Shown here: positions 2,102 to 24,236 of the stretch, piece after piece
How the letters are laid out: each line of letters opens with the position of its first letter
Numbering within the stretch: position 1 is the stretch's first letter
Virus record (IMG/VR): IMGVR_UViG_3300042922_000586
Location: 1 to 33,867 of that record
Direction: 5' to 3' (one strand)
DNA from: a virus
Length of the DNA: 33,867 nt
Notes under the pieces: generated by a model
Seen by the model: only the letters and a program-made list of their open reading frames with translations
Told to the model about the DNA's origin: nothing
The model's database searches: none
Translations under genes and position numbers: made by a program

Positions 2102-2195
2102 TGCATAAACGATTAGAATTATACACAAAAATGCGATTATACACCGTCCAGATACTTTGATTTTGCATATTTAGTGAATAAAGCAGGTGGTTTAA

Positions 2196-2402: not shown

Positions 2403-2428
2403 TAATAAAATATAAATAAATAATGTTT

Positions 2429-2497
2429 GCAGGATAATTACCTGCCCTGTAACCGAGAGGGTTTGTCAGATAACAACTGACCACCTTCTCTTTTTGT
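2429..2497 (+). terminator. Two-part hairpin terminator before the zinc-finger HNH gene
   Basis: First a 5-bp hairpin, GCAGG (2429-2433) with CCTGC (2441-2445). Then a longer one with outer GAGAGG (2455-2460) and CCTTCTC (2484-2490), an inner perfect GTCAG (2465-2469) and CTGAC (2477-2481), and a TTTTTG tail. It is the most likely end of the upstream small-gene transcript and isolates the following HNH gene. Confidence 0.6.
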
Positions 2498-2528
2498 TTG
2501 CTTAAAACGAATAAAAGGAGAGGGTAAT

Positions 2529-3560: not shown

Positions 3561-3570
3561 GTGATAAATA

Positions 3571-3942
3571 ATGCCGCTAACGCCAATGAAACCATGTTTG
3601 CACCCCGGATGTAATAAGCTTACGCGTGAAACCAGATGTGAAGAACATAAACAACTTGTTCAGAGATTGGCTGATAAGAAACGTGAAACTGCGTCTGAGA
3701 GAGGATATAATTCTAAATGGCAAAAGGCGCGCAAAACATTCTTGCAAAAAAATCCTCTATGCGCTGAATGTGATAAATCCAATAGAGTGACAGCAGCGAC
3801 AGTAGTAGATCATATTAAGCCGCATAAGGGTGATCAAAAGTTATTTTGGAATAAAAGTAATTGGCAACCATTGTGTAAACGTTGTCATGATAGAAAGACT
3901 GCTCGCGAAGATGGCGGTTTTGGTAAAAATATTAATAAATAA
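3571..3942 (+). CDS. Packaging-associated HNH endonuclease
   Basis: A 123-residue HNH protein of the type found directly upstream of terminase in many HK97-like cos phages (HK97 gp74 group). Features in order: an N-terminal CLHPGCNKLTRETRCEEH zinc knuckle, SERGYNSKWQKARKTFLQKNPLCAEC, then the core VVDHIKPHKGDQKLFWNKSNWQPLCKRCHDRKT (key residues DHI, H, N and the CxxC-H end). The start ATG 3571 follows AGGTGA. It lies 142 bases before TerS, separated only by the cos-like element. Known members cut DNA with the terminase at cos, so a role in genome end formation is likely. Confidence 0.9.
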   Translation: MPLTPMKPCLHPGCNKLTRETRCEEHKQLVQRLADKKRETASERGYNSKWQKARKTFLQKNPLCAECDKSNRVTAATVVDHIKPHKGDQKLFWNKSNWQPLCKRCHDRKTAREDGGFGKNINK

Positions 3943-7640: not shown

Positions 7641-8431
7641 AAAAAAAGTTTTGGAACTTTAAAAACCAATCAAATAGTGCTGCAGACTTGTATTTCTACG
7701 GTGAAATTAGTGAATATTCTTGGTGGGGCGACGAGGTAACGCCAAAAAGCTTTAAGGCAGATCTTGACGCGCTTGGCGATATCGCCGAATTAAACATCTA
7801 TATTAATAGCCCTGGCGGCGACGTTTTCGCTGCTCAAGCAATTTATAGCATGTTGAAACGGCATAAATCGAATAAATGCGTTTATATTGACGGCTTAGCA
7901 GCCAGCGCTGCGTCAGTAGTTGCTCTTGCTGGCGATAAGGTAATCATGCCAATTAACTCCATGCTTATGATCCATAATCCATGGACTATTGGCATTGGAA
8001 GTTCTGCCGATTTCCGTAAGCTTGCAGATGATCTGGATAAAATCCGCGAAAGCATTGTCGCTGTATACCGAGACAAAACCGGACTAACAGATGAAGACAT
8101 TATTAGTCTGATGGATGCTGAAACGTGGATGACTGCGGAAGATGCCTATGGCTATGGATTTGCTGATGAAGTCAAAAGTGAAAAAAAAGTCGCTGCTTCT
8201 ATGAAGGGCGATTTTTTTATTTGCAATGGACTGCAGTTTGATGTTGGTAAATTTGCTGCTTTTCCAAGGAATTCAATCCCTGTAGTTACAGATGAGCCTG
8301 TTATATCAACGCCGGTAATACCAGAACTAAAACCAGAACAAAAAAATAAGGCACCGCAGGTAAACAGCCTGCAAATATATGATTTTCAGTGCCGAATTAA
8401 CGAAAGGAGATTAAAACATGGACTTTATTAA
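7637..8431 (+). CDS. ClpP-like prohead protease
   Basis: The capsid maturation protease, which removes the scaffold-like delta domain of the capsid protein before DNA packaging. The ClpP fold is clear: INSPGGDVFAAQAIYSML, then the catalytic serine in GLAASAAS (S90), histidine in MIHNPW (H113) and a candidate aspartate in LMDAETW (D160). The C-terminal 70 residues are Pro-rich and probably a linker or scaffold tail. Start TTG 7637 follows AAAGGGGGTGATAGC and overlaps the portal stop. Its end overlaps the capsid gene by 14 bases. At 264 residues it is normal for the family. Confidence 0.94.
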   Translation: MKKKFWNFKNQSNSAADLYFYGEISEYSWWGDEVTPKSFKADLDALGDIAELNIYINSPGGDVFAAQAIYSMLKRHKSNKCVYIDGLAASAASVVALAGDKVIMPINSMLMIHNPWTIGIGSSADFRKLADDLDKIRESIVAVYRDKTGLTDEDIISLMDAETWMTAEDAYGYGFADEVKSEKKVAASMKGDFFICNGLQFDVGKFAAFPRNSIPVVTDEPVISTPVIPELKPEQKNKAPQVNSLQIYDFQCRINERRLKHGLY

Positions 8432-9704
8432 AATGATTGAGGATAAAAACAATCTTATTGCTGGCATGGTGGCCAAAGCAAAAATCGAAAACAGGGGGTT
8501 AACCGAGGCTGAAGTGACTCAATGTCAAGCCCTTGAGAACGAAATTAAGTCGCTTGAAGCATCTATGGAGTTTGAAAAAACAGTAAATTCTCGAATTGAT
8601 GCTGAAAAAACTCCTGTTAATCAGCCTGTATACTCCAATATTGAGGTAAAAGAGAAGAAATGGCAGAACCTTGGGGAACAGCTTCAAGCTGTATGCAGAG
8701 CCGCTAACCCTGATGGTGGCAGAATTGATAACAGACTGATTCACGGGGTTAAAAATGCTTCCGGAATGAATGAGGCTGTTAACTCTGAGGGCGGTTTCCT
8801 TGTTGAGCAACAATTCGTAGATGAAATGCTCCAAAAGGTCTATGAAACTGCTGTTGTTGCCAATAAGGTGCGAAAAATACCTATCGGTCCTACTGCTAAC
8901 GGACTTCGAATGAATGGTATTGACGAAACCAGCCGTGTAAATGGCTCTAGATATGGTGGGGTTCAGGCTTATTGGGCTGGCGAAGCTCAAACTGTAACCG
9001 CTTCGAAGCCTAAATTCCGCGAAATCAGCATGAAATTAGAAAAACTGTTTGCACTTTGCTACATGACAGATGAATTGATGGCTGATTCTACCGCGCTTGA
9101 GGCTGTGGTTAGGCAAGCGTTTAACGATGAAATGGCATTTAAACTTGATGATGCCATTATTTCCGGCAATGGTGTGGGTATCCCTCTTGGCATTCTAAAT
9201 TCTCCTTGTCTTGTAACTGTGGCCAAGGAAAATAACCAAGGTGCTGCGACGCTTCTTTATGAAAACATCGTTAAAATGTGGTCTCGTTGCTGGGGCCGTA
9301 GCCGCTTGAATTCCGCATGGTTTATTAATCAGGATATTGAGCCGCAATTGTACTCCATGAGTTTGGTTGTTGGAACCGGCGGCGTTCCTGTGTATATGCC
9401 TGCTACTGGCATTAGTGGACAGCCGTATGCCACGCTTTTCGGCAGGCCGGTTATTCCTATTGAACAGTGTTCGACGCTTGGTACTGTTGGTGATATTATC
9501 CTTGCCGACCTGAGCCAATACATTGCTATTGATAAGGGTGGTATTCAACCGGCATCTTCTGTTCATGTTCGGTTCTTATATGACGAGCAAGTATTCCGCT
9601 TTACTTATCGTGTAAATGGCCAACCTGCGTGGAATTCGGCGTTGACTCCGTTCAAAGGATCGAATACGTTGTCGCCATTTGTTGCTCTTGCAACACGTGG
9701 TTAA
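8418..9704 (+). CDS. Major capsid protein, HK97 fold
   Basis: The shell-forming protein, 428 residues. Residues 1 to about 60 are a charged coiled coil (the delta domain), and a linker runs to about residue 110. The mature part opens with EAVNSEGGFLVEQQFVDEMLQKVYE, the conserved start of the HK97 core. Later family segments include KFREISMKLEKLFALCYMTDELMADS and AFNDEMAFKLDDAIISGNGVGIPLGI. Cleavage by the upstream protease probably falls between about 90 and 118. ATG 8418 follows AAAGGAGA. A hairpin follows the gene. Confidence 0.96.
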   Translation: MDFIKMIEDKNNLIAGMVAKAKIENRGLTEAEVTQCQALENEIKSLEASMEFEKTVNSRIDAEKTPVNQPVYSNIEVKEKKWQNLGEQLQAVCRAANPDGGRIDNRLIHGVKNASGMNEAVNSEGGFLVEQQFVDEMLQKVYETAVVANKVRKIPIGPTANGLRMNGIDETSRVNGSRYGGVQAYWAGEAQTVTASKPKFREISMKLEKLFALCYMTDELMADSTALEAVVRQAFNDEMAFKLDDAIISGNGVGIPLGILNSPCLVTVAKENNQGAATLLYENIVKMWSRCWGRSRLNSAWFINQDIEPQLYSMSLVVGTGGVPVYMPATGISGQPYATLFGRPVIPIEQCSTLGTVGDIILADLSQYIAIDKGGIQPASSVHVRFLYDEQVFRFTYRVNGQPAWNSALTPFKGSNTLSPFVALATRG

Positions 9705-13292: not shown

Positions 13293-13505
13293 GTGAGTGT
13301 GAATTTAGTTGCGGTAAAAATACATGTTCAGCCTTGGTTTAATGTGTTTTGTAGTGATGTGACTAATGCGTTAAATCAGGCCGTTAAAAATGGCATGCCA
13401 ATTGACCTGGCCGTAAGATTGTCTCAAGTTATAGTGAAAAACTCAGCACGTGAAAGCATTAATTTGATGGAGGATATAAGAAATGAAAAAAACAATACCA
13501 TTTGA
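13293..13505 (+). CDS. Small protein between tail tube and tail chaperone, unknown function
   Basis: A 70-residue ORF from GTG 13293, 7 bases after GGAGG, overlapping the chaperone start by 23 bases. It has a beta-like start (VNLVAVKIHVQPWFNVF) and a helical end (NALNQAVKNGMPIDLAVRLSQVIVKNSARESINLMEDIRNE). The good SD and coupling to the next gene support translation. No family recognised; it may be a minor chaperone or tail component. Confidence 0.6.
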   Translation: MSVNLVAVKIHVQPWFNVFCSDVTNALNQAVKNGMPIDLAVRLSQVIVKNSARESINLMEDIRNEKNNTI

Positions 13506-13860
13506 ATGTTTCGGGGAAAAACAGCAATTGTGCTTTACCATTTCGGGGATCGTGGAACTGGAACGGGCGCTAAATAAATCAGTACAACAAATCGCTCAGT
13601 CCGGCAATGCTGGATTTGATTTCTGCTTAACTGCCTTGCCTATCTGCCTTAAAAGAATTAATCCTCACTTGTATGTAAAAAAAATTGAAGATTATTTGGA
13701 AACGGAAGGTAACACCATTGATGATATCGCTATCCCGATTGTGCATGCAATTGCCGCAAGCGGTGCATTAGGCAAAACTATTGCCAACAATGCTTTGCGA
13801 ATTTACTATCCTGATCAGTACCCTGAGCCAGAAGTCGAGGAATCAGAAAAAAATGTGTAG
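13483..13860 (+). CDS. Tail assembly chaperone, short form (gpG-like)
   Basis: A 125-residue, mostly helical protein that coats the tape measure during tail assembly. ATG 13483 follows GGAGGATATAAG and lies inside the end of the previous gene. The body (FECFGEKQQLCFTISGIVELERALNKS...ICLKRINPHLYVKKIEDYLETEG...IAIPIVHAIAASGALGK) resembles chaperones of Firmicutes siphophages. The last codons are GAA AAA AAT GTG TAG, and a hairpin follows, so a fraction of ribosomes should shift -1 and add the T extension encoded at 13854-14171. No tape measure follows directly, which is abnormal for this gene pair. Confidence 0.85.
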   Translation: MKKTIPFECFGEKQQLCFTISGIVELERALNKSVQQIAQSGNAGFDFCLTALPICLKRINPHLYVKKIEDYLETEGNTIDDIAIPIVHAIAASGALGKTIANNALRIYYPDQYPEPEVEESEKNV

Positions 13861-13879
13861 CGGACGGCAAGCCCGTCCG
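13848..13879 (+). promoter_or_regulatory. Programmed -1 ribosomal frameshift signal
   Basis: The slippery heptamer A-AAA-AAT is at 13848-13854, in the correct zero-frame register, six codon positions before the stop region. A 6-base spacer follows, then a perfect 7-bp stem CGGACGG (13861-13867) with CCGTCCG (13873-13879) and a 5-base loop. Heptamer, spacer and stem all fit the standard -1 frameshift layout of tail chaperone genes. Confidence 0.88.
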
Positions 13880-14171
13880 TAGTTTTTCCGAATGGGTAGA
13901 ATGGGCTGAATCAATTGCCTATGGCCCGCTTGAATTAAAACCTTGCGAATTCGAGAGATTACAACCGCATGAATTTGACTTATTGTTGGATGGCTATAAC
14001 TGGCGGGAAGATCATAACGGGAAGATACAAGCCTATTGGACGTCGCGCTTAATGTCTGTGCATACAAAGAAACCTGTCAAACCGACGGATTTGTGGAAGT
14101 CTCCAAAAGAAAAGGTTAAGCGGGACAAAAAGGCGGATGCAGAGCATTTGCGGGAAGTGTTTAAACTTTAA
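13854..14171 (+). CDS. -1 frame extension of tail assembly chaperone (gpT part of gpGT)
   Basis: Read after a -1 slip at 13848-13854, this frame continues CVADGKPVRSFSEWVEWAES...ELKPCEFERLQPHEFDLLLDGYNWREDHNGKIQAYWTSRLM and ends at TAA 14169-14171. The LxPxEFxxLLxGYxWR...AYW.a.LM pattern is typical of chaperone T domains, which bind the tape measure and tail tube. The fused product is about 229 residues. There is no start codon with an SD near the frame start; the ATG at 13983 is internal to the domain. This argues for frameshifting rather than a separate gene. Confidence 0.85.
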   Translation, partial: CVADGKPVRSFSEWVEWAESIAYGPLELKPCEFERLQPHEFDLLLDGYNWREDHNGKIQAYWTSRLMSVHTKKPVKPTDLWKSPKEKVKRDKKADAEHLREVFKL

Positions 14172-14204
14172 ATAAAGAGACGGTTATTCCGTCTCTTTAT
14201 TATT
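14171..14204. terminator. 13-bp perfect bidirectional terminator at the left edge of the regulatory island
   Basis: AATAAAGAGACGG (14171-14183) is perfectly inverted as CCGTCTCTTTATT (14189-14201) around TTATT. T-rich flanks lie on both sides. It ends the tail operon from the left and the leftward repressor gene from the right; the repressor stop codon sits in the loop. A slightly degenerate copy is at 15383-15414. Confidence 0.82.
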
Positions 14205-15050
14205 GGGGTCGTATTCTACTTTTGTAATTACGCCCATGATCCTAAGTCTGTTTGCATCTTCTGGGCGTATTATTAGCGGTTTATCAGAACCGGTATTTAA
14301 TAAAATTAAGTCACCCTCCCTGAAAAACCTAGCTATTAGCATAGAAAATTCATCTTCACCATAACCACCGAAAATAAGCGTATTGTTAGGTATCGTTTCA
14401 AAATCGAAAGAAGTATCGACGTAAATAATGCTATTACTTGGGACAAAGGCGCTTAAAGTCCGGTCAGAAGGCAGTTTGAAACAAGCAATATCATTTGCCA
14501 TAACATCGTCTACTTTTAACCATGTTCTATCCATATCCGGGAATTTATTCATATCAAAAAAAGGAATTCTTATAAGTCTTCTATCTTCTTCATTGTGTGT
14601 TGGATTCGTGTATTTATTGATTATCTCCATATAATGGATAATGAAGTCGATTTGTTTCTCGATAGATTTTGAGTATAGGAATTTAAGAAAGTCTTCCTTC
14701 GTCTTGAATTGCTTTTCTTCATCTATTCCATCGACGTCTTCTGCCATCTCTTGATAAACTTGATCAACTAACGTATCCCAACGTTCCATGTATTGTTGAA
14801 GTAACTTTTGGATAGGTTCCGGGGCTTTATCGATATAACCTTCCATAATAAGCTTCTGCGGATCTTGTTTGCAGATTATTGCAATGGCTTTAGATATCTC
14901 TTCGGATGGAGGGGGCATTCTGCCTGTCTGGATTCGTGAAATAGTAGAAGGATCAATCATTACCCCCATTTTTTCACATTCATTTGCAATCTGACGAAGC
15001 GTTAGACCGCTTTCTTTTGTATATTGTGCCAATAGATCTTTATAAGACAT
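14184..15050 (-). CDS. CI-like repressor: HTH plus S24-like C-terminal domain (switch 1)
   Basis: A 288-residue leftward regulator. The start is the second ATG (codon at 15048-15050), six bases after GGGGGA; the first ATG abuts that SD. Residues 1-60 are an XRE-type HTH with a longer turn (SGLTLRQIANECEKMGVMIDPSTISRIQTGRMPPPSEEI). A helical linker follows, then a C-terminal beta domain like S24/LexA proteins (FVPSNSIIYVDTSFDF, FSMLIARFF, PLIIRPE, RIMGVI). The usual catalytic lysine position reads as R in ARFF, so self-cleavage is doubtful. The HTH is a paralogue of the rightward proteins at 15252 and 16267. The gene ends KETE, exactly as the next leftward repressor. Confidence 0.82.
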   Translation of the reverse strand: MSYKDLLAQYTKESGLTLRQIANECEKMGVMIDPSTISRIQTGRMPPPSEEISKAIAIICKQDPQKLIMEGYIDKAPEPIQKLLQQYMERWDTLVDQVYQEMAEDVDGIDEEKQFKTKEDFLKFLYSKSIEKQIDFIIHYMEIINKYTNPTHNEEDRRLIRIPFFDMNKFPDMDRTWLKVDDVMANDIACFKLPSDRTLSAFVPSNSIIYVDTSFDFETIPNNTLIFGGYGEDEFSMLIARFFREGDLILLNTGSDKPLIIRPEDANRLRIMGVITKVEYDPNNKETE

Positions 15051-15085
15051 AGTCATTCCCCCATAATAACAAATATAACAAATAT

Positions 15086-15189
15086 TAGTTACATTAATTA
15101 TATTATACTCGATTTCTGCAATGCGTAAACGAGAATTGCAGAAAAAAATATATTTTACTATTGCATTTAACGGAAACGAGAGTTATAAT
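15086..15189. promoter_or_regulatory. Divergent promoters and operator repeats of switch 1
   Basis: Rightward promoter: TTGCAT (15161-15166), 17 bases, TATAAT (15184-15189). Leftward: TATAAT on the minus strand around 15102-15107 with a GTTTAC-like -35 about 17 bases upstream. Between them lies a 10-bp perfect inverted repeat, TTTCTGCAAT (15113-15122) and ATTGCAGAAA (15135-15144). AAACGAGA occurs twice (15127-15134 and 15174-15181). These are likely binding sites of the adjacent repressor. Confidence 0.65.
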
Positions 15190-15217
15190 AAAAACAAGAA
15201 TTTCCCCAATGAGAAAT

Positions 15218-15233
15218 GCGGAAATTTAATAAA
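15218..15233 (+). repeat. 16-bp repeat, copy 1 (vestige of a Cro-like gene end)
   Basis: GCGGAAATTTAATAAA here is identical to 16231-16246. In copy 2 it encodes the final AEI-stop of the Cro-like protein and the leader of the next HTH gene. Here the same frame gives NAEI-stop, but no gene precedes it, only the promoter. This looks like the remnant of a deleted Cro-like gene. Confidence 0.7.
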
Positions 15234-15251
15234 TAGAAAGGAGGTAATTTT

Positions 15252-15374
15252 ATGAAAGAAACAGAGTATGAGAAATTATTAAAAGAGGCAATCAACGCTA
15301 CGGGGTTGACACTTCGCCGCATATCATACAAATTCGATGAAATTGGTGCCAATATAGACCCAACGTATTTATAG
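15252..15374 (+). pseudogene. Truncated copy of the stand-alone HTH gene (switch 1)
   Basis: A 40-residue ORF from ATG 15252 with an AAAGGAGG SD. It reads MKETEYEKLLKEAINATGLTLRRISYKFDEIGANIDPTYL then TAG. It aligns without gaps to the first 40 residues of the 91-residue protein at 16267 (MDKPDYKKILKEAIQATGLTLRR...DPSYL). The next codons remain recognisable at DNA level (TAG for TCG, then CTACAA for TTGCAA) before the sequence runs into the terminator of the next leftward gene. So a nonsense change and a truncating join have removed the recognition half of the HTH. The intact promoter and SD mean a short peptide could still be made. Confidence 0.8.
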
Positions 15375-15382
15375 GGACTACA

Positions 15383-15414
15383 ATAAAAGAAGCGGTTATT
15401 CCGTCTCTTTTGTA
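15383..15414. terminator. Degenerate copy of the left-edge terminator
   Basis: AAAAGAAGCGG (15385-15395) pairs with CCGTCTCTTTT (15401-15411) with one G-U and one mismatch, same TTATT loop as at 14171-14204. It ends the leftward gene of switch 2 and, like the first, encodes the last codons KETE-stop of that gene. Confidence 0.7.
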
Positions 15415-15896
15415 GCAAGTATTAATTTGTCTTTAACTATTAATTTCAAGGTGCTAAAAACTGCCTCTGTCAGGCTTTTAATAAAAACGGCTTCAAACGA
15501 AGCTGCTTGGTTTAAAAAAATAGAACCTAATTCTATGAATTCATCTTTAGTTAGGCGGTAGTATGTAGCGTTTTTTGAATCTCCTTCTTTTGTAATACAA
15601 AAATCAAAAATGAGATTGGAACCATCTTGCATAACTTTATAGTCTATTCCTACTCGGTAAAAAAGGGCAACTATCGGATCAATTAACTCATCTTTTTGTG
15701 TTTTAGGATCTTTAATTAATTGGTCAACGCTGGTATCGATCATCCCGGCGATTTGTATTAAAGTTTCATATTTCGGCTCTTTCCCATTCTCCCAACTAAT
15801 ATATGTGGAGTATTTTACATCAAGAAACTCGGCCATTTCCTTGACGCTGTAACCCCAAATTTCCCTGTGTCGCTTTAAGTTATCAGCAAATGCCAT
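15396..15896 (-). CDS. XRE-family repressor (switch 2)
   Basis: A 166-residue leftward regulator starting at the ATG at 15894-15896, with GAGG about 10 bases upstream. Residues 3-60 form a standard Cro/CI HTH (LKRHREIWGYSVKEMAEFLDVKYSTYISWENGKEPKYETLIQIAGMIDTSVDQL). The C-terminal 100 residues are an alpha/beta domain without recognisable peptidase motifs (NLIFDFCITKEG...TYYRLTKDEFIELGSIFLNQAASF), possibly for oligomerisation or signal sensing. It ends LATKETE, sharing its last four residues and terminator with the switch 1 repressor though the proteins are otherwise unrelated. Confidence 0.8.
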   Translation of the reverse strand: MAFADNLKRHREIWGYSVKEMAEFLDVKYSTYISWENGKEPKYETLIQIAGMIDTSVDQLIKDPKTQKDELIDPIVALFYRVGIDYKVMQDGSNLIFDFCITKEGDSKNATYYRLTKDEFIELGSIFLNQAASFEAVFIKSLTEAVFSTLKLIVKDKLILATKETE

Positions 15897-15926
15897 CTTG
15901 TCACATCCTCATACGAAGTAAATTTG

Positions 15927-16021
15927 TTTCACTATTAGGAAAAATAATTTCACTAATGGTATTGAAGTTTTAGAAAACATATATTATACTAATAGTGTAA
16001 TAAAAAATACTATTAGTGAAA
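15927..16021. promoter_or_regulatory. Four operators in two 21-bp-spaced pairs, with promoter (switch 2)
   Basis: The palindromic core CACTAWTAGTG occurs four times: TTTCACTATTAG at 15927-15938, TTTCACTAATGG at 15948-15959, ACTAATAGTGTAA at 15988-16000 and ACTATTAGTGAAA at 16009-16021. Within each pair the spacing is exactly 21 bp, and the two pairs are in opposite orientation. The rightward promoter TTGAAG (15962-15967), 17 bases, TATACT (15985-15990) lies between and overlaps the third site. This fits cooperative repressor binding blocking one or both promoters. Confidence 0.82.
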
Positions 16022-16032
16022 GAAGGTGAATT

Positions 16033-16242
16033 ATGATAATCGATAGAGAAAAGTTCAATATTGCTCTTGCGACACAAAAAGAAACGCTAGAGGGCATTAG
16101 TCGCAAAGCAGGAGTAACCAAAAAGACCATATGTAATATGAAAAAAGGGAAAAATGTTGCACCTAGAACAATTGGGATGGTTGCAGAAGCTTTAAGCGTT
16201 TCCGTTGCTGGCTTATTAAAAGAGGATAGAGCGGAAATTTAA
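16033..16242 (+). CDS. Cro-like HTH protein (switch 2)
   Basis: A 69-residue rightward protein from ATG 16033 with AGAAGGTGA at good distance. It is almost entirely an XRE HTH (FNIALATQKETLEGISRKAGVTKKTICNMKKGKNVAPRTIGMVAEALSVSVAGLL). It is the first gene after the operator array, the classic Cro position opposite the repressor at 15396. Its final codons form copy 2 of the 16-bp repeat. Confidence 0.82.
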   Translation: MIIDREKFNIALATQKETLEGISRKAGVTKKTICNMKKGKNVAPRTIGMVAEALSVSVAGLLKEDRAEI

Positions 16243-16246
16243 TAAA
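16231..16246 (+). repeat. 16-bp repeat, copy 2
   Basis: GCGGAAATTTAATAAA, identical to 15218-15233. Here it spans the last codons of the Cro-like gene and the start of the leader of the HTH gene at 16267. Confidence 0.7.
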
Positions 16247-16266
16247 CAGGAAGAAGGGAAATGACC

Positions 16267-16542
16267 ATGGATAAACCGGATTACAAAAAAATATTAAAAG
16301 AAGCCATACAGGCTACTGGGTTAACGCTTCGCCGTGTTTCGTTTAAATTTGATGAATGCGGAACGAATCTAGATCCATCGTATTTATCGCGATTGCAAAC
16401 CGGAAAATTACCACCTGCATCTGATGAATTGAATAAAAAAATTGCCGAAGTTCTTGATATTAACGAAACAACACTGCGATTAGCTGCGCACCTATCAAAA
16501 ATACCCGAAGATTTATTACCGTACCTTGAAATTAAAGAGTAG
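16267..16542 (+). CDS. Stand-alone HTH protein, paralogue of the switch 1 repressor DNA-binding domain
   Basis: A 91-residue protein. ATG 16267 is 8 bases after AAGGG and aligns with the start of the truncated copy at 15252; ATG 16261 is too close to the SD. Residues 1-60 match the HTH of the CI-like protein at 14184 closely (GLTLRRVSFKFDECGTNLDPSYLSRLQTGKLPPASDELNKKIAEVL). A short tail (RLAAHLSKIPEDLLPYLEIKE) follows, and there is no S24-like domain. It may bind the switch 1 operators without responding to the inducing signal, or act as a co-regulator. Cotranscribed with the Cro-like gene. Confidence 0.8.
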   Translation: MDKPDYKKILKEAIQATGLTLRRVSFKFDECGTNLDPSYLSRLQTGKLPPASDELNKKIAEVLDINETTLRLAAHLSKIPEDLLPYLEIKE

Positions 16543-16557
16543 CAAAAGCGGTAAATG

Positions 16558-17169
16558 TCATCTAATCAACTCAGAAGGCCACGATACAGTAATGGTATAT
16601 TCTTCCTCACTATCGGGGATTTCATCGTGATAATGCAATGCAATTTCATCAACAACCCTATTTTCAACTTCTTGTCTAAACCAGAAAGGTGCTTGAGCGA
16701 ATTGTTTAATTAGTAAGTAATTCTGCTTAGCAGTATCGTCTATTGCTTCTTTGGTATCTTGATATGCGGGATTGCTAATCTCTATTTCTATATCCAACTT
16801 AGATATTTCTTTACCGGTAGTCCCTGATTCGTCATCCTCTAAAAAGAAACGATAATCAATGGTGGTAATAGCATAAAAAGTAAATGTTGATTTTTTGCCT
16901 TTCTCTGTAATCGACAATGTAATTAAAAATTGATCTTCATATATTTTATCAAGCCTAACATAAATGTCATAAGGCAAAAATGAAAAAAACTGTTCGGGAG
17001 TTATTTGCAAATAAATACATAGTTTATTTAATGTGTCGAACTGAATTCCTTGATTAGTGTTATTACTAAGCGCGGTCAAAGTAGTTCTGGATATACCGGT
17101 ATCCTCAGAAACCTTTGTGATCCGCAAATTTCGTTCGGCAAACAACAACATAAGATTTGTTCGAATCAA
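16558..17169 (-). CDS. HTH regulator with C-terminal sensor-like domain (switch 3)
   Basis: A 203-residue leftward regulator. I use TTG (codon at 17167-17169), about 6 bases after AGAGAGGTG. Longer readings add an unlikely Cys-rich leader that would cross the promoter. Residues 5-60 are an HTH (LLFAERNLRITKVSEDTGISRTTLTALSNN...FDTLNKLCIYLQITPEQFF) closely related to the rightward protein at 17299. The C-terminal part is acidic and beta-rich (YVRLDKIYEDQFLITLSITEKGKKSTFTFYAITTIDYRFFLEDDE) and not recognised. No terminator copy follows, unlike switches 1 and 2. Confidence 0.78.
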   Translation of the reverse strand: MIRTNLMLLFAERNLRITKVSEDTGISRTTLTALSNNTNQGIQFDTLNKLCIYLQITPEQFFSFLPYDIYVRLDKIYEDQFLITLSITEKGKKSTFTFYAITTIDYRFFLEDDESGTTGKEISKLDIEIEISNPAYQDTKEAIDDTAKQNYLLIKQFAQAPFWFRQEVENRVVDEIALHYHDEIPDSEEEYTITVSWPSELIR

Positions 17170-17184
17170 TACAATCACCTCTCT

Positions 17185-17276
17185 GCATAATGTACAATAT
17201 ATTGAACGAAAAAGCAATTGACATAGCAATATGGCTAGTGTACAATGATTTTATAAAACGTTCAGAGTATTGGACA
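17185..17276. promoter_or_regulatory. Divergent promoters and operators of switch 3
   Basis: Rightward promoter: TTGACA (17218-17223), 17 bases, TACAAT (17241-17246), near consensus. Leftward: a TTGCTT -35 with a 17-base spacer and TACATT -10 on the minus strand around 17187-17215. Operator-like sites: TGTACAAT-AT-ATTGAACG (17191-17208), TGTACAAT (17239-17246) over the rightward -10, and CGTTCAGA-GT-ATTGGACA (17259-17276). The sequence is unrelated to the operators of switches 1 and 2. Confidence 0.75.
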
Positions 17277-17298
17277 AATATGGAGATGGTGCGAAGGG

Positions 17299-17511
17299 AT
17301 GATTAGTATAATTAACAATAACTTTTCAACTATATTAGGGAAAAGACTATTGAAAATTAGCAAAGTGGCTAACGACACTGGAATATCTCGCACAACGCTT
17401 ACCAATCTATATTATAAAAGAAGTCAACTTGTTTCTTTCGATGTCCTTGAAAAACTGTGTACATATTTAGGCTGTAATATAGGCGATATTCTTGAACATA
17501 GGCAACAGTAA
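17299..17511 (+). CDS. Small Cro-like HTH protein (switch 3)
   Basis: A 70-residue protein consisting of one HTH (LGKRLLKISKVANDTGISRTTLTNLYYKRSQLVSFDVLEKLCTYLGCNIGDILEHR). It is a paralogue of the leftward regulator: both share the segment DTGISRTTLT and the LxxLCxYL end. ATG 17299 is used with GGAGATGG about 9 bases upstream; GAAGGG abuts it, so a slightly later start is possible. It lies directly downstream of a near-consensus promoter and could repress its own and the opposing promoter. Confidence 0.78.
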   Translation: MISIINNNFSTILGKRLLKISKVANDTGISRTTLTNLYYKRSQLVSFDVLEKLCTYLGCNIGDILEHRQQ

Positions 17512-17548
17512 GCCAATGCGGCATTTGTTTGTGGTGAGGGGGTTGGGT

Positions 17549-18490
17549 ATGGATTACGAGATTCATGAGGTAGCCAATATCTTTCCGATGATGAGCAATA
17601 GTGAGTTTGCCGGGTTAGTGGAAGATATTCAGAAGAACGGACAACGCGAGTCCATATGGTTGCACCAGGGAAAGATCATTGATGGCAGAAACCGGTATAA
17701 GGCATGTTCTCAATTAGGAATTGAGCCCAAGGTTAAGGAGTGGGACGGCAAAGGAAGTATGGTTGACTTTATCGTCAGCATGAATTTTCATCGACGAAAT
17801 ATGGATGAGAGCCAAAGGGCAATGGTCGGGGCTAAAATTAAACATATCTTTGAAGAGGATGCGCGAAAAAGAATGCTCGCCACTCAAAATAACAACCAAG
17901 GAAAGCAGCTAAGACCGAAAGAGCCTAGCTGCGATAAAGGAACTTCTGCTGAAAAAGCCGCTAAGATGGTTAACTCCTCTAACTCATCCGTGAAACGCGC
18001 TTTTAAAGTTGTGCAAAATGGCGTTCCGGAATTAGTTCAAGCCGTTGAAACTGGAAAAGTATCTGTAACCAGGGCCTACGAGATTGCCAAACTACCAGAA
18101 GAAAAACAGTCTGAAGTCATTCAAAACAATTTTAAGGGAGATGTTGAGACCAAGAGGAAGGAAGATAATGCAGTGGAAGATTCTAAGCCTACCCCGAAAG
18201 CTAAGTCTAAATCGAACCCATTCTTAAAACCATACCAATATACCCCGCCATTACACGTGGAAGCTCCTGTGCTGCAGAAGATGCTTGAAGATGTCAATAT
18301 GACTGTCATGCGGTTTATGAGTGAGTTTGAAACTGAGTTGTATCAACTGGAAGAAATGGGTGATTTCCAATATAAGATTGGAGCCTATGTGGATGCATTT
18401 CATAAGCATGGTAATAAGCTGGAAGCCTTAATTGAATTAAAAAAGGGGATGGAGAAAGATGCTCGCAAAGTACGAAAGTCTGCCAATTAA
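17549..18490 (+). CDS. ParB-like N-terminal domain protein
   Basis: A 313-residue protein with ParB/Sulfiredoxin-type fold. The start ATG 17549 follows GTGAGGGGGTTGG; the TTG at 17492 inside the previous gene is unlikely. The N-terminus has the ParB layout (NIFPMMSNSEFAGLVEDIQKNGQRESIWLHQGKIIDGRNRYKAC), with the II(D)GRNR motif. An HTH-like part follows (DKGTSAEKAAKMVNSSNSSVKRAFKVVQNGVPELVQAVETGKVSVTRAYEIAKLP), then a Lys/Pro-rich linker and a helical end. Chromosomal ParB partitions DNA, but phage relatives are usually regulators or nuclease-like proteins. No ParA gene or parS-like array is visible, so partitioning is not supported here. Confidence 0.8.
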   Translation: MDYEIHEVANIFPMMSNSEFAGLVEDIQKNGQRESIWLHQGKIIDGRNRYKACSQLGIEPKVKEWDGKGSMVDFIVSMNFHRRNMDESQRAMVGAKIKHIFEEDARKRMLATQNNNQGKQLRPKEPSCDKGTSAEKAAKMVNSSNSSVKRAFKVVQNGVPELVQAVETGKVSVTRAYEIAKLPEEKQSEVIQNNFKGDVETKRKEDNAVEDSKPTPKAKSKSNPFLKPYQYTPPLHVEAPVLQKMLEDVNMTVMRFMSEFETELYQLEEMGDFQYKIGAYVDAFHKHGNKLEALIELKKGMEKDARKVRKSAN

Positions 18491-19253
18491 CAGTTTGTTT
18501 ATTGACCCTACATATCAGCGCGATATCAATCACGGTAAAATCAAAGAATGGGGCAAGAACTTCGATGATTCGCTTATTGGAGCCATTGAAGTAGCCGAGC
18601 GCAGTAATGGTACTTATGCAATACTGGATGGACAGCATAGATGGCATTTACTTAAGTCGAAAAATTACAAGACGGTCCCTTGTCTGGTCCATTCCGAGAT
18701 GACGGTTCAGGAAGAGGCATTAAAATTTAAAGAACTCAATGCTAACATAAATAGATTGAGTGAACTTGAAAAGTTCTGGGCTATGATAGGGGCGTGCAAT
18801 TCGAAGCATCTGGAAATTATGAATTTAATAAGTAAAAACGGACTATCTGTTGCCAGGCGTTCCGGTTCAAAGTCTAGCCAGTGCTACCAAATTGCTGCAA
18901 TCGGCAAAATTATGATGATTGAAAAAACATATGGCAATCACATTCTAGACAATACGTTGTCTTTCGTGACTAACGTATGGCCGGGTAACGGATATTCCTT
19001 AAAAGGTCTTATTCTTGAAGGTGTGGCAATTTTTCTATATCGACATCTTAGAAATGTTAAGTTTAATCTTAAAAACGCTCAGAAGAAGTTCTCAATACTT
19101 AATACGGAAATTGTGCTGGCAAAAGCAAGAGATAAATCTAAGCTTTATGGAAGCGGAGTGCAGTATAATATTGCCGATCTTCTTGCCGAAGCATATAACA
19201 AAGGGTTGACCCAAGACAATAAACTCAGATGGGAAGGCCAGTCGGACAAATAA
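18459..19253 (+). CDS. Second ParB-like/DGQHR protein
   Basis: A 264-residue protein overlapping the first ParB-like gene by 32 bases, with GGAG four bases before ATG 18459. The ParB-like core reads LPINSLFIDPTYQRDINHGKIKEWGKNFDDSLIGAIEVAERSNGTYAILDGQHRWHLLKSKN. Its DGQHR motif is shared with DndB-like and plasmid/phage DUF6551-type proteins. The helical C-terminal half (EEALKFKELNANINRLSELEKFWAMIGA, ending ADLLAEAYNKGL) is typical of that family. Tight coupling suggests the two ParB-like proteins work together, possibly as a heteromeric DNA-binding or nucleotide-dependent complex. Function unknown. Confidence 0.75.
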   Translation: MLAKYESLPINSLFIDPTYQRDINHGKIKEWGKNFDDSLIGAIEVAERSNGTYAILDGQHRWHLLKSKNYKTVPCLVHSEMTVQEEALKFKELNANINRLSELEKFWAMIGACNSKHLEIMNLISKNGLSVARRSGSKSSQCYQIAAIGKIMMIEKTYGNHILDNTLSFVTNVWPGNGYSLKGLILEGVAIFLYRHLRNVKFNLKNAQKKFSILNTEIVLAKARDKSKLYGSGVQYNIADLLAEAYNKGLTQDNKLRWEGQSDK

Positions 19254-19305
19254 AAAAGACCGCTTGCGGCGGCCAACACGTTAGGTAGATTATAACATAG
19301 ACAAT

Positions 19306-19384
19306 TAAAAATTAAAAGAGTTAATTGCGACATCTTGGCGGGTGAGCAATTAACTCTAGCAGCAACCCTTGCCGGGGTACAACT
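19306..19384 (-). ncRNA. Predicted leftward small RNA, about 78 nt, with intrinsic terminator
   Basis: On the minus strand a promoter (19391-19420) is followed by about 27 nt and then a 12-bp perfect stem, AGAGTTAATTGC (minus copy of 19346-19357) with GCAATTAACTCT (minus copy of 19317-19328), loop 17, and TTTTAATTTTT. This is a complete small-RNA gene: promoter, start, terminator. No ORF fits. The 5' part carries CCGGCAAGGGTTGCTGCT. Confidence 0.55.
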
Positions 19385-19440
19385 ACTATTATTATACCCA
19401 CTTTATATTATTTTAGTCAATACCTCCTCCGGCAAGGGTT
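19364..19440. repeat. 12-bp perfect inverted repeat flanking the promoter loop
   Basis: AACCCTTGCCGG (19364-19375) and CCGGCAAGGGTT (19429-19440) enclose 53 AT-rich bases. GGTA (19376-19379) and TACC (19421-19424) extend the pairing past a 4-base bulge. The arms could fold in RNA, or mark a small mobile-element remnant of 77 bp with terminal inverted repeats; no convincing target duplication is seen. Confidence 0.65.
19391..19420 (-). promoter_or_regulatory. Leftward promoter of the predicted small RNA
   Basis: On the minus strand TTGACT (complement of 19415-19420), 18 bases, TATAAT (complement of 19391-19396). Near-consensus elements inside the AT-rich loop of the inverted repeat. Confidence 0.65.
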
Positions 19441-19458
19441 TAAATGAGGGAGGGTATT
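19419..19458 (+). promoter_or_regulatory. Hairpin that hides the ribosome binding site of the 19462 gene
   Basis: AATACCTCC (19419-19427) pairs with GGAGGGTATT (19449-19458) in a 9-bp stem with one bulged G, covering the whole SD of ATG 19462. The loop contains the right arm of the 12-bp inverted repeat. An alternative fold pairs that arm with 19364-19375 and would break this stem. This is a possible translational switch. Confidence 0.55.
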
Positions 19459-19461
19459 TTT

Positions 19462-19713
19462 ATGCCAAAAATTATTCCGACGGAATTCGGAGTAAACTTA
19501 GGATACATAGATAAGATAATCCTGGTTGACGGAACCGTACTTGAGAATTGTCAGGTTTTATATAACTCGCCAATCCCTAATACAAAGCAAATTGAAATAA
19601 TCTTCGCCATCGCTAATGAAACTTCCAAGCAAATCATTGGTGCTGCCAATCATACATGGTCTGCTCAGCCAGATATCATGATTAAACATTCCTTCTTTGG
19701 AGGTGCTAATTGA
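19462..19713 (+). CDS. Small protein of unknown function upstream of the antirepressor
   Basis: An 83-residue protein, MPKIIPTEFGVNLGYIDKIILVDGTVLENCQVLYNSPIP and onward, mostly beta-type, with one Cys. ATG 19462 is 7 bases after GAGGGAGGG; ATG 19444 lies before that SD. Its stop overlaps the start of the Bro-N gene, so it is translationally coupled to it. The SD is buried in a predicted hairpin, suggesting controlled translation. I do not recognise the family; the context suggests a role with the antirepressor or in its regulation. Confidence 0.65.
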   Translation: MPKIIPTEFGVNLGYIDKIILVDGTVLENCQVLYNSPIPNTKQIEIIFAIANETSKQIIGAANHTWSAQPDIMIKHSFFGGAN

Positions 19714-20522
19714 TGAGTGATTTAACTAAAATATTTAATTATGACAGTAAGCAAATGCGAATAGTGGTTGTTGATAACGAACCTTGGTTTGTAGCAAAAG
19801 ATGTTTGTGAATTATTGGGGCTTGAGCAAGTTAGCCGAGCCATGGACAGACTTGATGATGATGAAAGGGGCTTACTAAAAGTAACCCACCCCCAAAGCCC
19901 GGATAAGACTATTGAAGTTAACGGCATCAACGAGTCGGGACTATATCAATTAATTATCGCATCAAACAAACACGAGGCAAGATCGTTCAAGCGGTGGGTC
20001 ACTCATGAAGTACTGCCAACAATCCGCAGACACGGCATGTACGCTACTGATGATTTATTAAATAACCCAGACTTGGCAATTAAGGCATTCACTGCCCTTA
20101 AGGAAGAACGGGCCCGGAATCAACAATTGGCACTTGAAAATGCCCAGAAAACTCAAATAATCCATGAGCTTCAACCAAAGGCTACATACTACGATTTTAT
20201 TTTGCAAACTAAAGCTGCTATATCAGTAAATCAAATTGCAAAAGACTATGGAATGTCTGCAAGGCAATTAAATAACCTGTTGCATGATTTTAAAGTACAA
20301 TATAAAGAAGGGGGAATATGGTTATTGTATCAAGACCATGCGCCAATGGGGTATACTTCATCCAAAACCCATAATTACACTAACAGCAGGAACGAGCAAT
20401 GCAGTAAGCTTCATACCTATTGGACACAAAAAGGACGACTGTTTATCTATGACCTGCTAAAACAGCAAGGAATCCTGCCGATGATTGAGCGTGAAGGGTT
20501 AAGATTGGTTTCAAATAAATAG
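19710..20522 (+). CDS. ant: Phage antirepressor with Bro-N and KilAC (ANT) domains
   Basis: A 270-residue protein. Bro-N domain at about 1-110: LTKIFNYDSKQMRIVVVDNEPWFVAKDVCELLGL, then VNGINESGLYQLIIASNKHEARSFKRWVTHEVLPTIRRHGMY, all hallmark segments. A coiled linker follows, and a KilAC/ANT domain at about 145-265: ISVNQIAKDYGMSARQLNNLLHDFKVQYKEGGIWLL, ending TQKGRLFIYDLLKQQGILP. Such proteins bind CI-type repressors or DNA and trigger lytic growth. ATG 19710 or 19713 both sit downstream of TTTGGAGG. Being in the same island as three repressors, it is a natural candidate to inactivate one or more of them. Confidence 0.92.
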   Translation: MMSDLTKIFNYDSKQMRIVVVDNEPWFVAKDVCELLGLEQVSRAMDRLDDDERGLLKVTHPQSPDKTIEVNGINESGLYQLIIASNKHEARSFKRWVTHEVLPTIRRHGMYATDDLLNNPDLAIKAFTALKEERARNQQLALENAQKTQIIHELQPKATYYDFILQTKAAISVNQIAKDYGMSARQLNNLLHDFKVQYKEGGIWLLYQDHAPMGYTSSKTHNYTNSRNEQCSKLHTYWTQKGRLFIYDLLKQQGILPMIEREGLRLVSNK

Positions 20523-20531
20523 TGACGGTTC

Positions 20532-20560
20532 AAAGAGAGGCTAATAACCTCTCTTTTCTT
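20532..20560. terminator. Bidirectional terminator after the antirepressor
   Basis: AAAGAGAGG (20532-20540) pairs perfectly with CCTCTCTTT (20548-20556), loop 7, with TCTT following and T-rich sequence on the other strand. It ends the antirepressor transcript and the leftward secreted-protein gene. Confidence 0.78.
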
Positions 20561-20569
20561 ATACCCATG

Positions 20570-20584
20570 AAAGGAGGTGATTAG
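20570..20584 (+). promoter_or_regulatory. Orphan perfect Shine-Dalgarno sequence
   Basis: AAAGGAGGTGATTAG faces right but no rightward ORF follows; the leftward gene's stop codon begins at the next base. It resembles the SD before the tape measure (GAGGTGATAAAA at 21231-21242). It may be the original ribosome site of the displaced tail gene, left behind when the leftward gene was inserted. Confidence 0.5.
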
Positions 20585-21127
20585 TTAATTGTTTTTCAGT
20601 TTTTCTGCTTCTTTTATTAGATCATAATTTAAAACTGTTTTCCATTCTTGGATGCATTCTGGAGTTAGCTTGAATTGGTAGTCTAATTGATTGCTGAAGT
20701 TTACTCTAAATAGCACGCTTTTATCGCTTTGTATGGCCTTGTAAATTTTGTCTGTATCGTAGATTATTCTACCGCCCCATGCATATAAAAGATTTGTCTT
20801 TGTACTGGGGAGAGCGTGGTCTTTAATTTGCCAAGTAGTGCTGTTTCCTACGGGTTCTCCTTCGATAATGTAATCAAGGTTTTTACTAAAGAAATAATAC
20901 TCGTTGCCGGATACCATAAACTTCATATTAACAAATGGTTTAGGAATATCTTTAGCGTAAGTCTTTGTGAGGTAGCAAGTCATTTCGGTGCTAGGATTTA
21001 TTGCGATTACTCTCTCACTAGTTACAGTAAAGGTGTTTTTAAATTGATCGAGTGACGTTTTTATCTCCGCAAAACAAATAGACGGCAAACAAAGCAATAC
21101 CACGAAAAATAATAGTGTTTTTTTCAC
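20585..21127 (-). CDS. Secreted moron protein of unknown function
   Basis: A 180-residue leftward protein. The start is GTG (codon at 21125-21127), 8 bases after AAAAGGGG. Earlier starts would lie upstream of the transcription start predicted from the promoter at 21150-21178. The N-terminus MKKTLLFFVVLLCLPSICFA is a classic signal peptide with cleavage before EIK. The mature part is beta-rich (FTVTSERVIAINPSTEMTCYLTKTYAKD, NEYYFFSKNLDYIIEGEPVGNSTTWQI) and not recognised. Own promoter, own terminator and opposite orientation to the late operon define it as a moron, probably expressed in the lysogen and acting at the cell envelope. Confidence 0.8.
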   Translation of the reverse strand: MKKTLLFFVVLLCLPSICFAEIKTSLDQFKNTFTVTSERVIAINPSTEMTCYLTKTYAKDIPKPFVNMKFMVSGNEYYFFSKNLDYIIEGEPVGNSTTWQIKDHALPSTKTNLLYAWGGRIIYDTDKIYKAIQSDKSVLFRVNFSNQLDYQFKLTPECIQEWKTVLNYDLIKEAEKLKNN

Positions 21128-21149
21128 ACAAAAAACCCCTTTTATTCCC

Positions 21150-21178
21150 ATTCTATATAGTTTGTCCTGAAAAATCAA
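21150..21178 (-). promoter_or_regulatory. Promoter of the secreted moron
   Basis: On the minus strand TTGATT (complement of 21173-21178), 17 bases, TAGAAT (complement of 21150-21155), followed directly by GGGAATAAAAGGGG and the GTG start. Good spacing and element match. Confidence 0.68.
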
Positions 21179-21242
21179 TGAATATTCAAAATAGCAGTCC
21201 ATGTGACTGCTATTAATTTTGCTTGGAAACGAGGTGATAAAA

Positions 21243-24236
21243 ATAGCAACCGTAGCAGAGCTACTCGTAAAAATTGGTGCCGACAGCTCAGGTTTGCGCA
21301 AAGAAATCAATGCGACTCAGCGCCAATTGAAGCGAGCATTTGGGCCCGAGTCCCTTGAGTTATCCGAAGGAGCAGCAGGTGTGCTTGCTGGCATTGCTGC
21401 CGCTATGGGAGCAATAGGCATAGCGTCTGTAAAAATGGCTGCCGATATGCAGGCGAGCAGGACCGCATTTACTCAGTTATTGGGAAGTGCGGATAAGGCA
21501 AACGCAATGCTAAAAGACTTGGCTACTTTTGCCGCCGACACACCATTTGAACTGCCGGGATTAGTAAATGCGTCAAAAAGACTTTTAGGTATGGGGTTTG
21601 CCGCCGAAGATGTAATTCCAATGATGTCTGCCGTTGGCGATTCTATTGCGTTACTCGGTGGCGGTCAAGATGCGATTAACGGTGTTGTTCGTGCTCTAGG
21701 TCAAATTCAGGCTAAAGGAAAACTGTCGGCAGAAGAAATTAATCAGCTTGCAGATAATAATATACAGGCTTGGAAATATGTTGCTTCTGAGCTAGGCGTG
21801 TCGATTCCTCAGGCAATGGAAATGACAAAGAATGGCGCTGTCGATGCCACGACAGCTATTAACGGTATAGTAAAAGGTATGCAGTCTGAATTCAAAGGTG
21901 GCATGACGGCATTATCCAAGGAGATACCTGGGCTACTGTCAACCATCAAGGACAATGCAGGCGCTGTAATGCGTGAAATGGGAGACCAGATAACCGATGC
22001 ACTAGATTTAAAAGCCAGACTGCAAGGCGTTGCTGATTACCTCAATACCTTCGCCAGTGCAGTAGAAAATTCAGGCCTTAAAAATGCGATACTTGGAATG
22101 GTTCCTCCTGAAGCTACAGCCGCTGTTTTCGCATTAGGCGGAGCATTAGTAGCAGTTGCCATACCTGCGATATATACATTCGCCGCCGGCTTATGGTTGG
22201 CTATTGCACCTATGGCCCCTTTTATCGCGTTAGGCGCGGCAATTGGCTTGCTGGCCTATGAGATTTGGAAGAACTGGGAACCGCTTGGCGGACTTTTCTC
22301 AGGTCTCTGGAGTGCGATAACATCTTCAACCTCCGCGGCATGGGGTAACATTCAAAGAGTGTTTTATTCTGGTGTTCAATCTGTTTTGCAGATGATGATA
22401 CCTCTTGCAAATCTGGTTGGTGGTGGGCTACAGGCGGCATTAAGTAGCTGGCTTGATACACTGCCAGGCAAGATTGAAGCTGCTTCATCACAAGCTGCTG
22501 AAGCGAATACAAAGTTGGCGGAAAGCTTAGCGAGTGTCAAAAAAGCTGCCAGTGGTTTAAACGTCGGCATGGTCATGAAAGACATTTCAAGTTTAATGCC
22601 TTCTGCTGCGAATAAACCTAATACTACTTTTACGGGATTACACGGAAACGGCTCTCCCGCTGCAGCACCTGACGACGGCGCTACAAAAAAAGCTGCAGAT
22701 AAAGCAGCAAAGGAATGGGAGAAGCTTGAGGATAAAGCTGAGCAAGTCAGCAAATCAATTCAGCGTGAGTGGGTGCAAACCACAAAAACCCAAATGGAAC
22801 AGCTTGATATTTGGGTGGATGAGCAGAACAGAGAGCTTGATAAAACTGCTGCTGCAAATGTCAATTACGAGGAAGACAAGAAGAAGGTTGCAGCCATATA
22901 CTCTGAGAGACGAATTAAAATTCTTCGCGATGAAGCCCAAAAAGCAAGGGAAATTGCTGTTACGATTCGCGATGCGTGGAAAGAACTGCAATACAATACG
23001 ACCAGTAGTGGATTGGCAGGAAATAGCGCTGATCTTGCTAAGATGGCTAGTGACCATCAGAATGCCATTGACGCTATTAGTGACAAGTGGGATAAGTTGT
23101 CTCAACAATACGCTACAGCTACGGCGACAGAGAAGTCTATATTTATTAAGAATCTTCAAGATCGCGGCGTTGTGTATAAAAAAATTGGCGAAGATGAAAT
23201 ATCTTTTGAGGCCAATAAGTTAGCCGAGAAAGCAGCCTTGAACGAGCAGTATAATCAAAAACTGTTAGATAGGTACGCTACAGGCAAAGACCTCCAAGCC
23301 GATATTGACGCGGCCTACAATGCTAACAGTATGGCTATGTTGCAAGCAGCGTTAACCAAAGAAAATGCCATCCAGCAGAGCAATCGCGATGCCCAATTAG
23401 AAATGATGAAACTATTTGAGCAAGCTAGGGCAGATGCAACGTTAACATCGGCTGAAGTCATTTCCCGTATAGGGTCAACAGCCTATGACGGCTTTAAGTC
23501 CGGACTTGCCGACATATTTGCCGGAACGAAAAGCATTGGAGATGCCTGGAACGAGTTAGGCGGTGTAATCCGCAAGGTAATTGCTAATATGGTGGCGGAG
23601 TGGATTGCTGGCAAAATTGCAATGGCTTTATTCGGCAAAGCATCGGGTGATGAAACATCAGCTAAATCAGTAACCCAAGGTGCAGCTACGGCAGCCGCAT
23701 GGTGGCCTGCCGCTATTGCGGTATCTCTGGCGACTTTTGGGGCTAACGCTGGTCCGGCTATTGGCGGCATGGCGGCGGCTACGGTTGCAGGGATGGGTAT
23801 GGGCATGATTTCGGGCAAGGCAACAGGCGGCCCGATCAATGGGCCCGGTACCGGAACTTCAGACAGTATTTTAACCTGGCTGTCAAACGGTGAGTATGTT
23901 ATTAAAGCCTCTGCGGTCAGAGAGCTTGGCATTGATGCATTAAATACACTCAATACTGGGCAAATGCCTGCGTTCGCATCTGGTGGTTTAGTGACCGGCC
24001 CGTCACTATCATCGTTAGGCAGTAAATACAGTGGATCTACTGGCAACCAGACGAACAGAAGATCATCAACAACCACCGACTCATCCAGTCAATCACCATC
24101 CATTAACGGCACCATAAACGTAAACATGCTCGACACAAAAGGCTTCAAAAAATTCCTGAAAAACTCCGGCGGCGCAGAAGTGCAGAAATTCTTTGTCGGC
24201 CAAGCAAAGGCGTTCGGCGTGGGGGTGAGGATATAG
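21243..24236 (+). CDS. Tape measure protein, probable ATA start
   Basis: The protein that fixes tail length and crosses into the host on infection, 997 residues from 21243. GAGGTGA (21231-21237) sits 5 bases before ATA 21243, giving IATVAELLVKIGADSSGLRKEI; the only other starts are TTG 21219 and GTG 21234, upstream of or inside the SD. An N-terminal tape-measure core is at about 60-200 (FTQLLGSADKANAMLKDLATFAADTPFELPGL). Hydrophobic clusters lie near 290-345 and 820-860 (WWPAAIAVSLATFG...MGMGMI), with long coiled coils at about 480-760. The C-terminal segment ATGGPINGPGTGTSDSI...LSNGEYVI is typical. By the usual 0.15 nm per residue it predicts a tail near 150 nm. It is about 7 kb from its chaperone. 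Confidence 0.93.
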   Translation: MATVAELLVKIGADSSGLRKEINATQRQLKRAFGPESLELSEGAAGVLAGIAAAMGAIGIASVKMAADMQASRTAFTQLLGSADKANAMLKDLATFAADTPFELPGLVNASKRLLGMGFAAEDVIPMMSAVGDSIALLGGGQDAINGVVRALGQIQAKGKLSAEEINQLADNNIQAWKYVASELGVSIPQAMEMTKNGAVDATTAINGIVKGMQSEFKGGMTALSKEIPGLLSTIKDNAGAVMREMGDQITDALDLKARLQGVADYLNTFASAVENSGLKNAILGMVPPEATAAVFALGGALVAVAIPAIYTFAAGLWLAIAPMAPFIALGAAIGLLAYEIWKNWEPLGGLFSGLWSAITSSTSAAWGNIQRVFYSGVQSVLQMMIPLANLVGGGLQAALSSWLDTLPGKIEAASSQAAEANTKLAESLASVKKAASGLNVGMVMKDISSLMPSAANKPNTTFTGLHGNGSPAAAPDDGATKKAADKAAKEWEKLEDKAEQVSKSIQREWVQTTKTQMEQLDIWVDEQNRELDKTAAANVNYEEDKKKVAAIYSERRIKILRDEAQKAREIAVTIRDAWKELQYNTTSSGLAGNSADLAKMASDHQNAIDAISDKWDKLSQQYATATATEKSIFIKNLQDRGVVYKKIGEDEISFEANKLAEKAALNEQYNQKLLDRYATGKDLQADIDAAYNANSMAMLQAALTKENAIQQSNRDAQLEMMKLFEQARADATLTSAEVISRIGSTAYDGFKSGLADIFAGTKSIGDAWNELGGVIRKVIANMVAEWIAGKIAMALFGKASGDETSAKSVTQGAATAAAWWPAAIAVSLATFGANAGPAIGGMAAATVAGMGMGMISGKATGGPINGPGTGTSDSILTWLSNGEYVIKASAVRELGIDALNTLNTGQMPAFASGGLVTGPSLSSLGSKYSGSTGNQTNRRSSTTTDSSSQSPSINGTINVNMLDTKGFKKFLKNSGGAEVQKFFVGQAKAFGVGVRI

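Follow-up and report, generated by a model that had tools for sequence, protein, structure and literature searches.

A 7-kb island of repressor switches, an antirepressor and a conserved RNA element in the tail operon of a Negativicutes prophage resembles a secondary immunity region of the P22 immI type

The immI region of phage P22 is situated within the late genes and has the order sieA(-) mnt(-) / arc sar ant terminator. The control of an antirepressor by a small RNA, with a structured leader, has been described for c4-ant of phages P1 and P7 (PMC12197685), and in the IsrK-orf45-anrP locus of prophage Gifsy-1 a structured leader with alternative RNA structures is accompanied by a short ORF, the stop of which overlaps the antirepressor start (PMC4825925). 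The removal of repressors by an antirepressor has been described for Gifsy prophages (PMC3121763). Here we analyse a 33,867-base virus record (hereafter the window) of a prophage whose host group is the Sporomusa-like bacteria of the Negativicutes, and which carries about 7 kb of regulatory genes between the tail chaperone and the tape measure gene. We consider it reasonably probable that this island represents a secondary immunity region of the P22 immI type that arose by successive insertions at the chaperone-tape measure moron site.

PHROGs profiles identified the window as a siphophage late region, with HNH genes, terminase, portal, protease, capsid, connectors, major tail protein, gpG, its -1 extension, the tape measure and additional tail genes; the genes at the right end are read as lysis-type by position only. 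Four HNH endonuclease genes are packed at the left end (303-3942), before the terminase genes. The same profiles revealed neither an integrase nor a canonical left arm in the 33,867 bases, and no repressor outside the island within the window; the record begins near the early/late boundary, the left arm being absent from it. Relatives of the tape measure gene were found in Sporomusaceae, in other genomes and in viral contigs, most of the related loci being metagenomic.

The left flank of the island is formed by the chaperone gpG and its -1 frameshift extension gpGT (13483-14171, gpG 13483-13860, rightward; phrog_2115 and phrog_7377), where gpG closes with an A7 slippery stretch (13842-13860) that fits the usual -1 frameshift. 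The right flank is the tape measure protein (21243-24236, rightward, start at 21219 or 21243; phrog_12798). The spacing between gpT and the tape measure gene in the window is 7,048 bp, whereas in 46 of the 49 related loci in which the gpT extension was identified, several of them copies of one phage, the two genes abut or lie at most 110 bp apart. The statement of the initial annotation that they are normally adjacent therefore holds, as does the existence of an island of about 7 kb, lacking in relatives, which separates gpG/gpGT from the tape measure gene. The remaining three loci belong to two phages: one (L040) has a spacing of 324 bp with a 93-aa leftward gene, and the other (L004/L012) a spacing of 820 bp with one leftward gene and a bidirectional terminator similar to that of the window. 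Since all three exceptional loci carry one leftward gene at this place, comparison of the sequences marks the junction as an insertion site.

Right after gpT the window has a bidirectional terminator-like hairpin with a 13-bp perfect inverted repeat, AATAAAGAGACGG..CCGTCTCTTTATT (14171-14201). It is resembled by the L004 hairpin AATAAAGAGGC..GCCTCTTTATT, located behind gpT and ahead of the leftward gene, and no such hairpin follows gpT at the closed junctions of L002, L003, L005 and L039. Another terminator-like hairpin (21190-21214, rightward) directly precedes the tape measure gene. The G+C content of the island is 34-39%, compared to 41-47% in the flanks; most of its genes are intact with plausible start sites, and simple promoter matches over the region (29 observed, 26.5 expected) are hardly above chance. 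Like a moron, the island is extra cargo at a late-gene junction that is missing from close relatives. It had been called a non-standard prophage layout, which holds only in part: HK97 has a moron at the same junction, P22 immI lies in late genes and another Negativicutes phage (L138) has a related antirepressor between chaperone and tape measure. The suggestion that the island times the expression of tape measure or lysis genes found no direct support, the island being bounded by terminator-like hairpins.

The cargo is as first described: leftward HTH repressors, rightward Cro-like genes, two ParB-like genes, a Bro-N/KilAC antirepressor and a leftward signal-peptide gene. Of the three divergent regulator modules reported, switches 2 and 3 are intact and switch 1 is decayed. 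Switch 2 comprises the 166-aa HTH_3 repressor R2 (15396-15896, leftward), an operator-like region with four TTTCACTAATAGT-type sites (15924-16024) and a rightward Cro-like 69-aa HTH protein with weak matches (16033-16242), followed by a rightward 93-aa HTH-like protein (16261-16542; phrog_34197). In switch 3, the HTH_26 repressor R3 (16558-17169, leftward, start at 17151 or 17169) is separated from a Cro-like 70-aa HTH_26 protein (17299-17511, rightward), its paralogue with 54% identity over 46 aa, by a region (17188-17246) with two TGTACAAT sites and a promoter-like TTGACA-17-TACAAT (17218-17246). Both switches thus have, by sequence, the divergent HTH pair and shared operator-like repeats of CI/Cro systems. 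Switch 1 consists of R1, a 290-aa HTH repressor-like protein (14184-15056, leftward; HTH_31 weak, phrog_37705), and a rightward partner truncated to 40 codons (15252-15374), which rules it out as such a pair. Operators had been proposed for each switch; the repeats convince in switches 2 and 3 and less so in switch 1, where one 10-bp perfect inverted repeat, TTTCTGCAAT/ATTGCAGAAA (15113-15144), is a possible operator.

Nor is the supposed independence of the three switches supported, for besides the decay of one, switches 1 and 2 share paralogous parts: the truncated ORF is 67% identical over 40 aa to the 93-aa protein of switch 2, which in turn is paralogous to the N terminus of R1 (37%). The two copies of a 34-nt direct repeat (82%; left copy 14165-14198, right copy 15377-15410) enclose switch 1, the right copy being the 3' end of R2, and both R1 and R2 end in KETE. 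Given this repeat and the shared last codons, switch 1 probably entered via recombination at the 3' end of R2, as a nested insertion. An AlphaFold model of R1 alone (pLDDT 47) was too poor for use, a phmmer search of PDB sequences with R1 brought up nothing credible, and single-protein scans of viral contigs found no relatives of R1, ParB1 or ParB2. PADLOC returned weak matches only, mostly to HTH regulators. The S24 peptidase domain, as expected for LexA-type autocleavage, had no match in R1, R2 or R3 at E ≤ 1, which makes their removal by an antirepressor more likely than SOS cleavage.

Downstream of switch 3 two ParB-like proteins are encoded rightward, ParB1 (17549-18490; phrog_21315/4715) and ParB2 (18459-19253; DUF6551). 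Their relatives in the L040 phage, 46-47% and 48% identical, are likewise neighbours; the pair is located there in the early region, after an integrase and an HTH_3 repressor and before a Rha antirepressor, and the tail genes of this phage are partly close to those of the window (gpG 77%, tail terminator 75%). This arrangement, together with the lack of another repressor in the window, could be taken to mean that the island is the primary lysogeny-control module, moved as a block from the early region to the tail operon. We consider this unlikely: the island is devoid of an integrase, the L040 relative has kept the standard early position, and the record, beginning close to the boundary of early and late genes, simply lacks the left arm.

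The antirepressor Ant (19713-20522, rightward; PF02498 Bro-N and PF03374 KilAC, phrog_130) is preceded by a rightward 83-codon ORF of no family (19462-19713), whose stop overlaps the Ant start (TGATG), so that the two are likely to be translationally coupled. The nearest Ant proteins come from two other phages, L136 (76%) and L138 (59%), and are encoded there in the tail region, in the former just downstream of a tape measure-like gene and in the latter between chaperone and tape measure. These positions indicate, as far as sequence goes, that antirepressors do land in tail operons within this host group. In L138 (8508-13249) the tail looks unrelated, and the antirepressor shares the space between the chaperone and tape measure genes with a secreted gene and a small RHH-like one. 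At the right end of the island a leftward gene (20585-21127) encodes a secreted protein with a signal-peptide-like N terminus; it has a promoter-like TTGATT-17-TAGAAT (21178-21150) and flanking hairpins, and these candidate promoter and terminator sequences, such as a moron would have, surround this gene only. No convincing kinship to it was seen in the secreted genes that L004, L136, L138 and L040 have close to the junction.

The leader of the antirepressor unit deserves special attention. What had been noted as a small RNA region does contain structured RNA, which is not generic but one instance of an element that recurs. L136 and L138 have leaders with 87% identity that form two hairpins, followed at the 3' side by a purine-rich site and then TATTTTTATG. 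A DNA search of Sporomusa-type chromosomes identified related leaders ahead of SLH-domain genes that have nif-like genes nearby, with two in tandem in one genome; the SLH domain was confirmed by Pfam for one such downstream gene. A covariance model (R1) built from six sequences, the L136 and L138 leaders and chromosomal leaders, with the window left out, recovered the element in the window (19316-19471) at E=5.4e-5 in 7.5 kb, the next best match being at 0.39; against 534 kb the window match had E=0.0039. Applied to 300 Negativicutes genomes, the model found further copies ahead of a Rha antirepressor beside chaperone and tape measure (L304), ahead of a Bro-N/KilAC Ant (L305) and ahead of another SLH-like gene (L303), and a partial copy (L306). 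All five known phage copies, from the window and four other Negativicutes phages, precede a short ORF and an antirepressor, an association free of search bias in L304 only, as Ant was part of the route to L136, L138, L305 and the window. Other phage and prophage loci, about 3.4 Mb in all, yielded no more copies, pattern scans for viral copies gave no further members, and no Rfam family (C4, sar, riboswitches or any other) matched at the element in the window or its relatives at E ≤ 5. The element appears not to have been described before.

The copies before SLH-domain-like genes are located at 8340-8660 (leftward) in L291, 7959-8104 (rightward) in L292, 7475-7620 (leftward) in L293 and 6038-6185 (rightward) in L303, and in the loop of hairpin I they hardly differ from the prophage copy L304. 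The partial copy in L306 (6133-6214) is situated upstream of two large enzyme genes, which by reading may encode glycyl radical enzymes. In L305 (3608-5385) homologues of window genes 1351-1608 and 1706-2101 follow directly downstream of the RNA element and Ant, so that a related phage has the same cassette near the early/late boundary.

Hairpin II contains a candidate anti-Shine-Dalgarno (anti-SD) sequence, AATACCTCCTC (19419-19429, rightward), complementary to the Shine-Dalgarno (SD) site at 19446-19458. Across nine distinct copies the own anti-SD:SD pairing was stronger than swapped pairing (126 of 50,000 permutations), and for the window itself the energy was no better than with foreign SDs. 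On the opposite strand an antisense RNA of about 75 nt is predicted (19306-19384, leftward), with a promoter-like TTGACT-18-TATAAT at 19420-19391 and a hairpin with T-run ending at about 19306; P22 sar, for comparison, has 68/69 nt (PMC12197685). A TTGC-type -35, a spacer of 17-18 nt and an extended -10 are found on this strand in nine of ten copies, the window promoter match differing in being shifted and lacking the extended -10, and all ten have a hairpin and then T-rich sequence 60-75 nt further on. Per-copy promoter scores are only modestly above shuffles. The recurrence of the pattern at one position is suggestive, but no more, of an antisense RNA gene, since the copies are related by descent. 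Our first reading, a cis-acting riboswitch on the sense strand, is possible; in view of the recurrent leftward promoter and terminator pattern, we prefer the reading that the antisense RNA may open hairpin II and free the anti-SD. Tentatively, the leader may represent a new Negativicutes family of antisense sRNA genes with anti-SD control of antirepressors, closely similar copies standing before SLH-domain (porin-like) genes in Sporomusa-type chromosomes, from which cross-regulation of induction and envelope protein between prophage and host may follow.

We infer the regulation, timing and immunity of the island from its gene arrangement as follows. In a lysogen the leftward repressors R2 and R3, perhaps also R1, would shut the rightward Cro-ParB1-ParB2-ORF-Ant unit and would confer immunity to phages with the same operators; the immunity to other phages proposed at the outset is consistent with the regulatory cargo. 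A second lock on Ant might be provided by the short antisense RNA from the leader, which would open hairpin II and free the anti-SD strand to stop translation of the short ORF and of the coupled Ant. Upon entry into a cell that has neither the repressor nor the antisense RNA, or on flipping of the switches, Ant would be made and would inactivate the repressors of its own phage or of a resident prophage; R1-R3 are expected to be taken off by an antirepressor without SOS cleavage. The leftward secreted gene may be an independent exclusion-type moron.

One might see in the island instead a scrap heap of degraded morons and regulators without joint function, given its mixed ancestry and switch 1 with its truncated partner and bounding direct repeat; most genes, however, are intact with plausible starts, and the RNA element is preserved, as are the operator-like repeats in switches 2 and 3, which makes this distinctly improbable. 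That two phages were joined in the tail operon by the assembly is very improbable, for although the virus contig comes without read-support information, both island borders lie exactly at gene ends, the left terminator is like that of L004 at the same junction and insertions recur there in relatives.

If the secondary immunity reading is correct, immI-type immunity extends to phages of Negativicutes, and the island suggests that nested insertion lets switches accumulate at a moron site. Through the RNA element, for which there is no Rfam entry, the control of antirepressors in at least five phages is linked to an element of host chromosomes, and RNA control of prophage crosstalk becomes testable outside enterobacteria.

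Compared with P22 immI, the island similarly places a repressor and antirepressor module in late genes, with a leftward repressor and a rightward small DNA-binding gene, a terminator, a leftward exclusion-type gene and a predicted antisense RNA in the position of sar in the ant leader. It differs in having CI/Cro-type HTH pairs, two intact and one decayed, in place of Mnt/Arc, the repressors matching HTH_3/HTH_26 and not ribbon-helix-helix models; in the Bro-N/KilAC type of its Ant (phrog_130); in the additional ParB-like genes; and in its site between chaperone and tape measure. We regard this likeness as one of layout, without claiming homology. HK97 carries the gp15 moron and a terminator at the exact chaperone-tape measure junction, although gp15 is one small gene as against 7 kb of regulators. 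Ordinary CI/Cro switches share the divergent HTH pairs with operator-like repeats between them, whereas those of the island are stacked, in a tail operon and without integrase. The c4 RNA is read from the same strand as ant, and P1/P7 c4 differs further in that the Rfam C4 family has no match here. A close parallel for the structured leader and the short ORF overlapping the antirepressor start is Gifsy-1 IsrK-orf45-anrP, in which IsrK lies on the anrP strand, while the small RNA predicted here is encoded on the opposite one.
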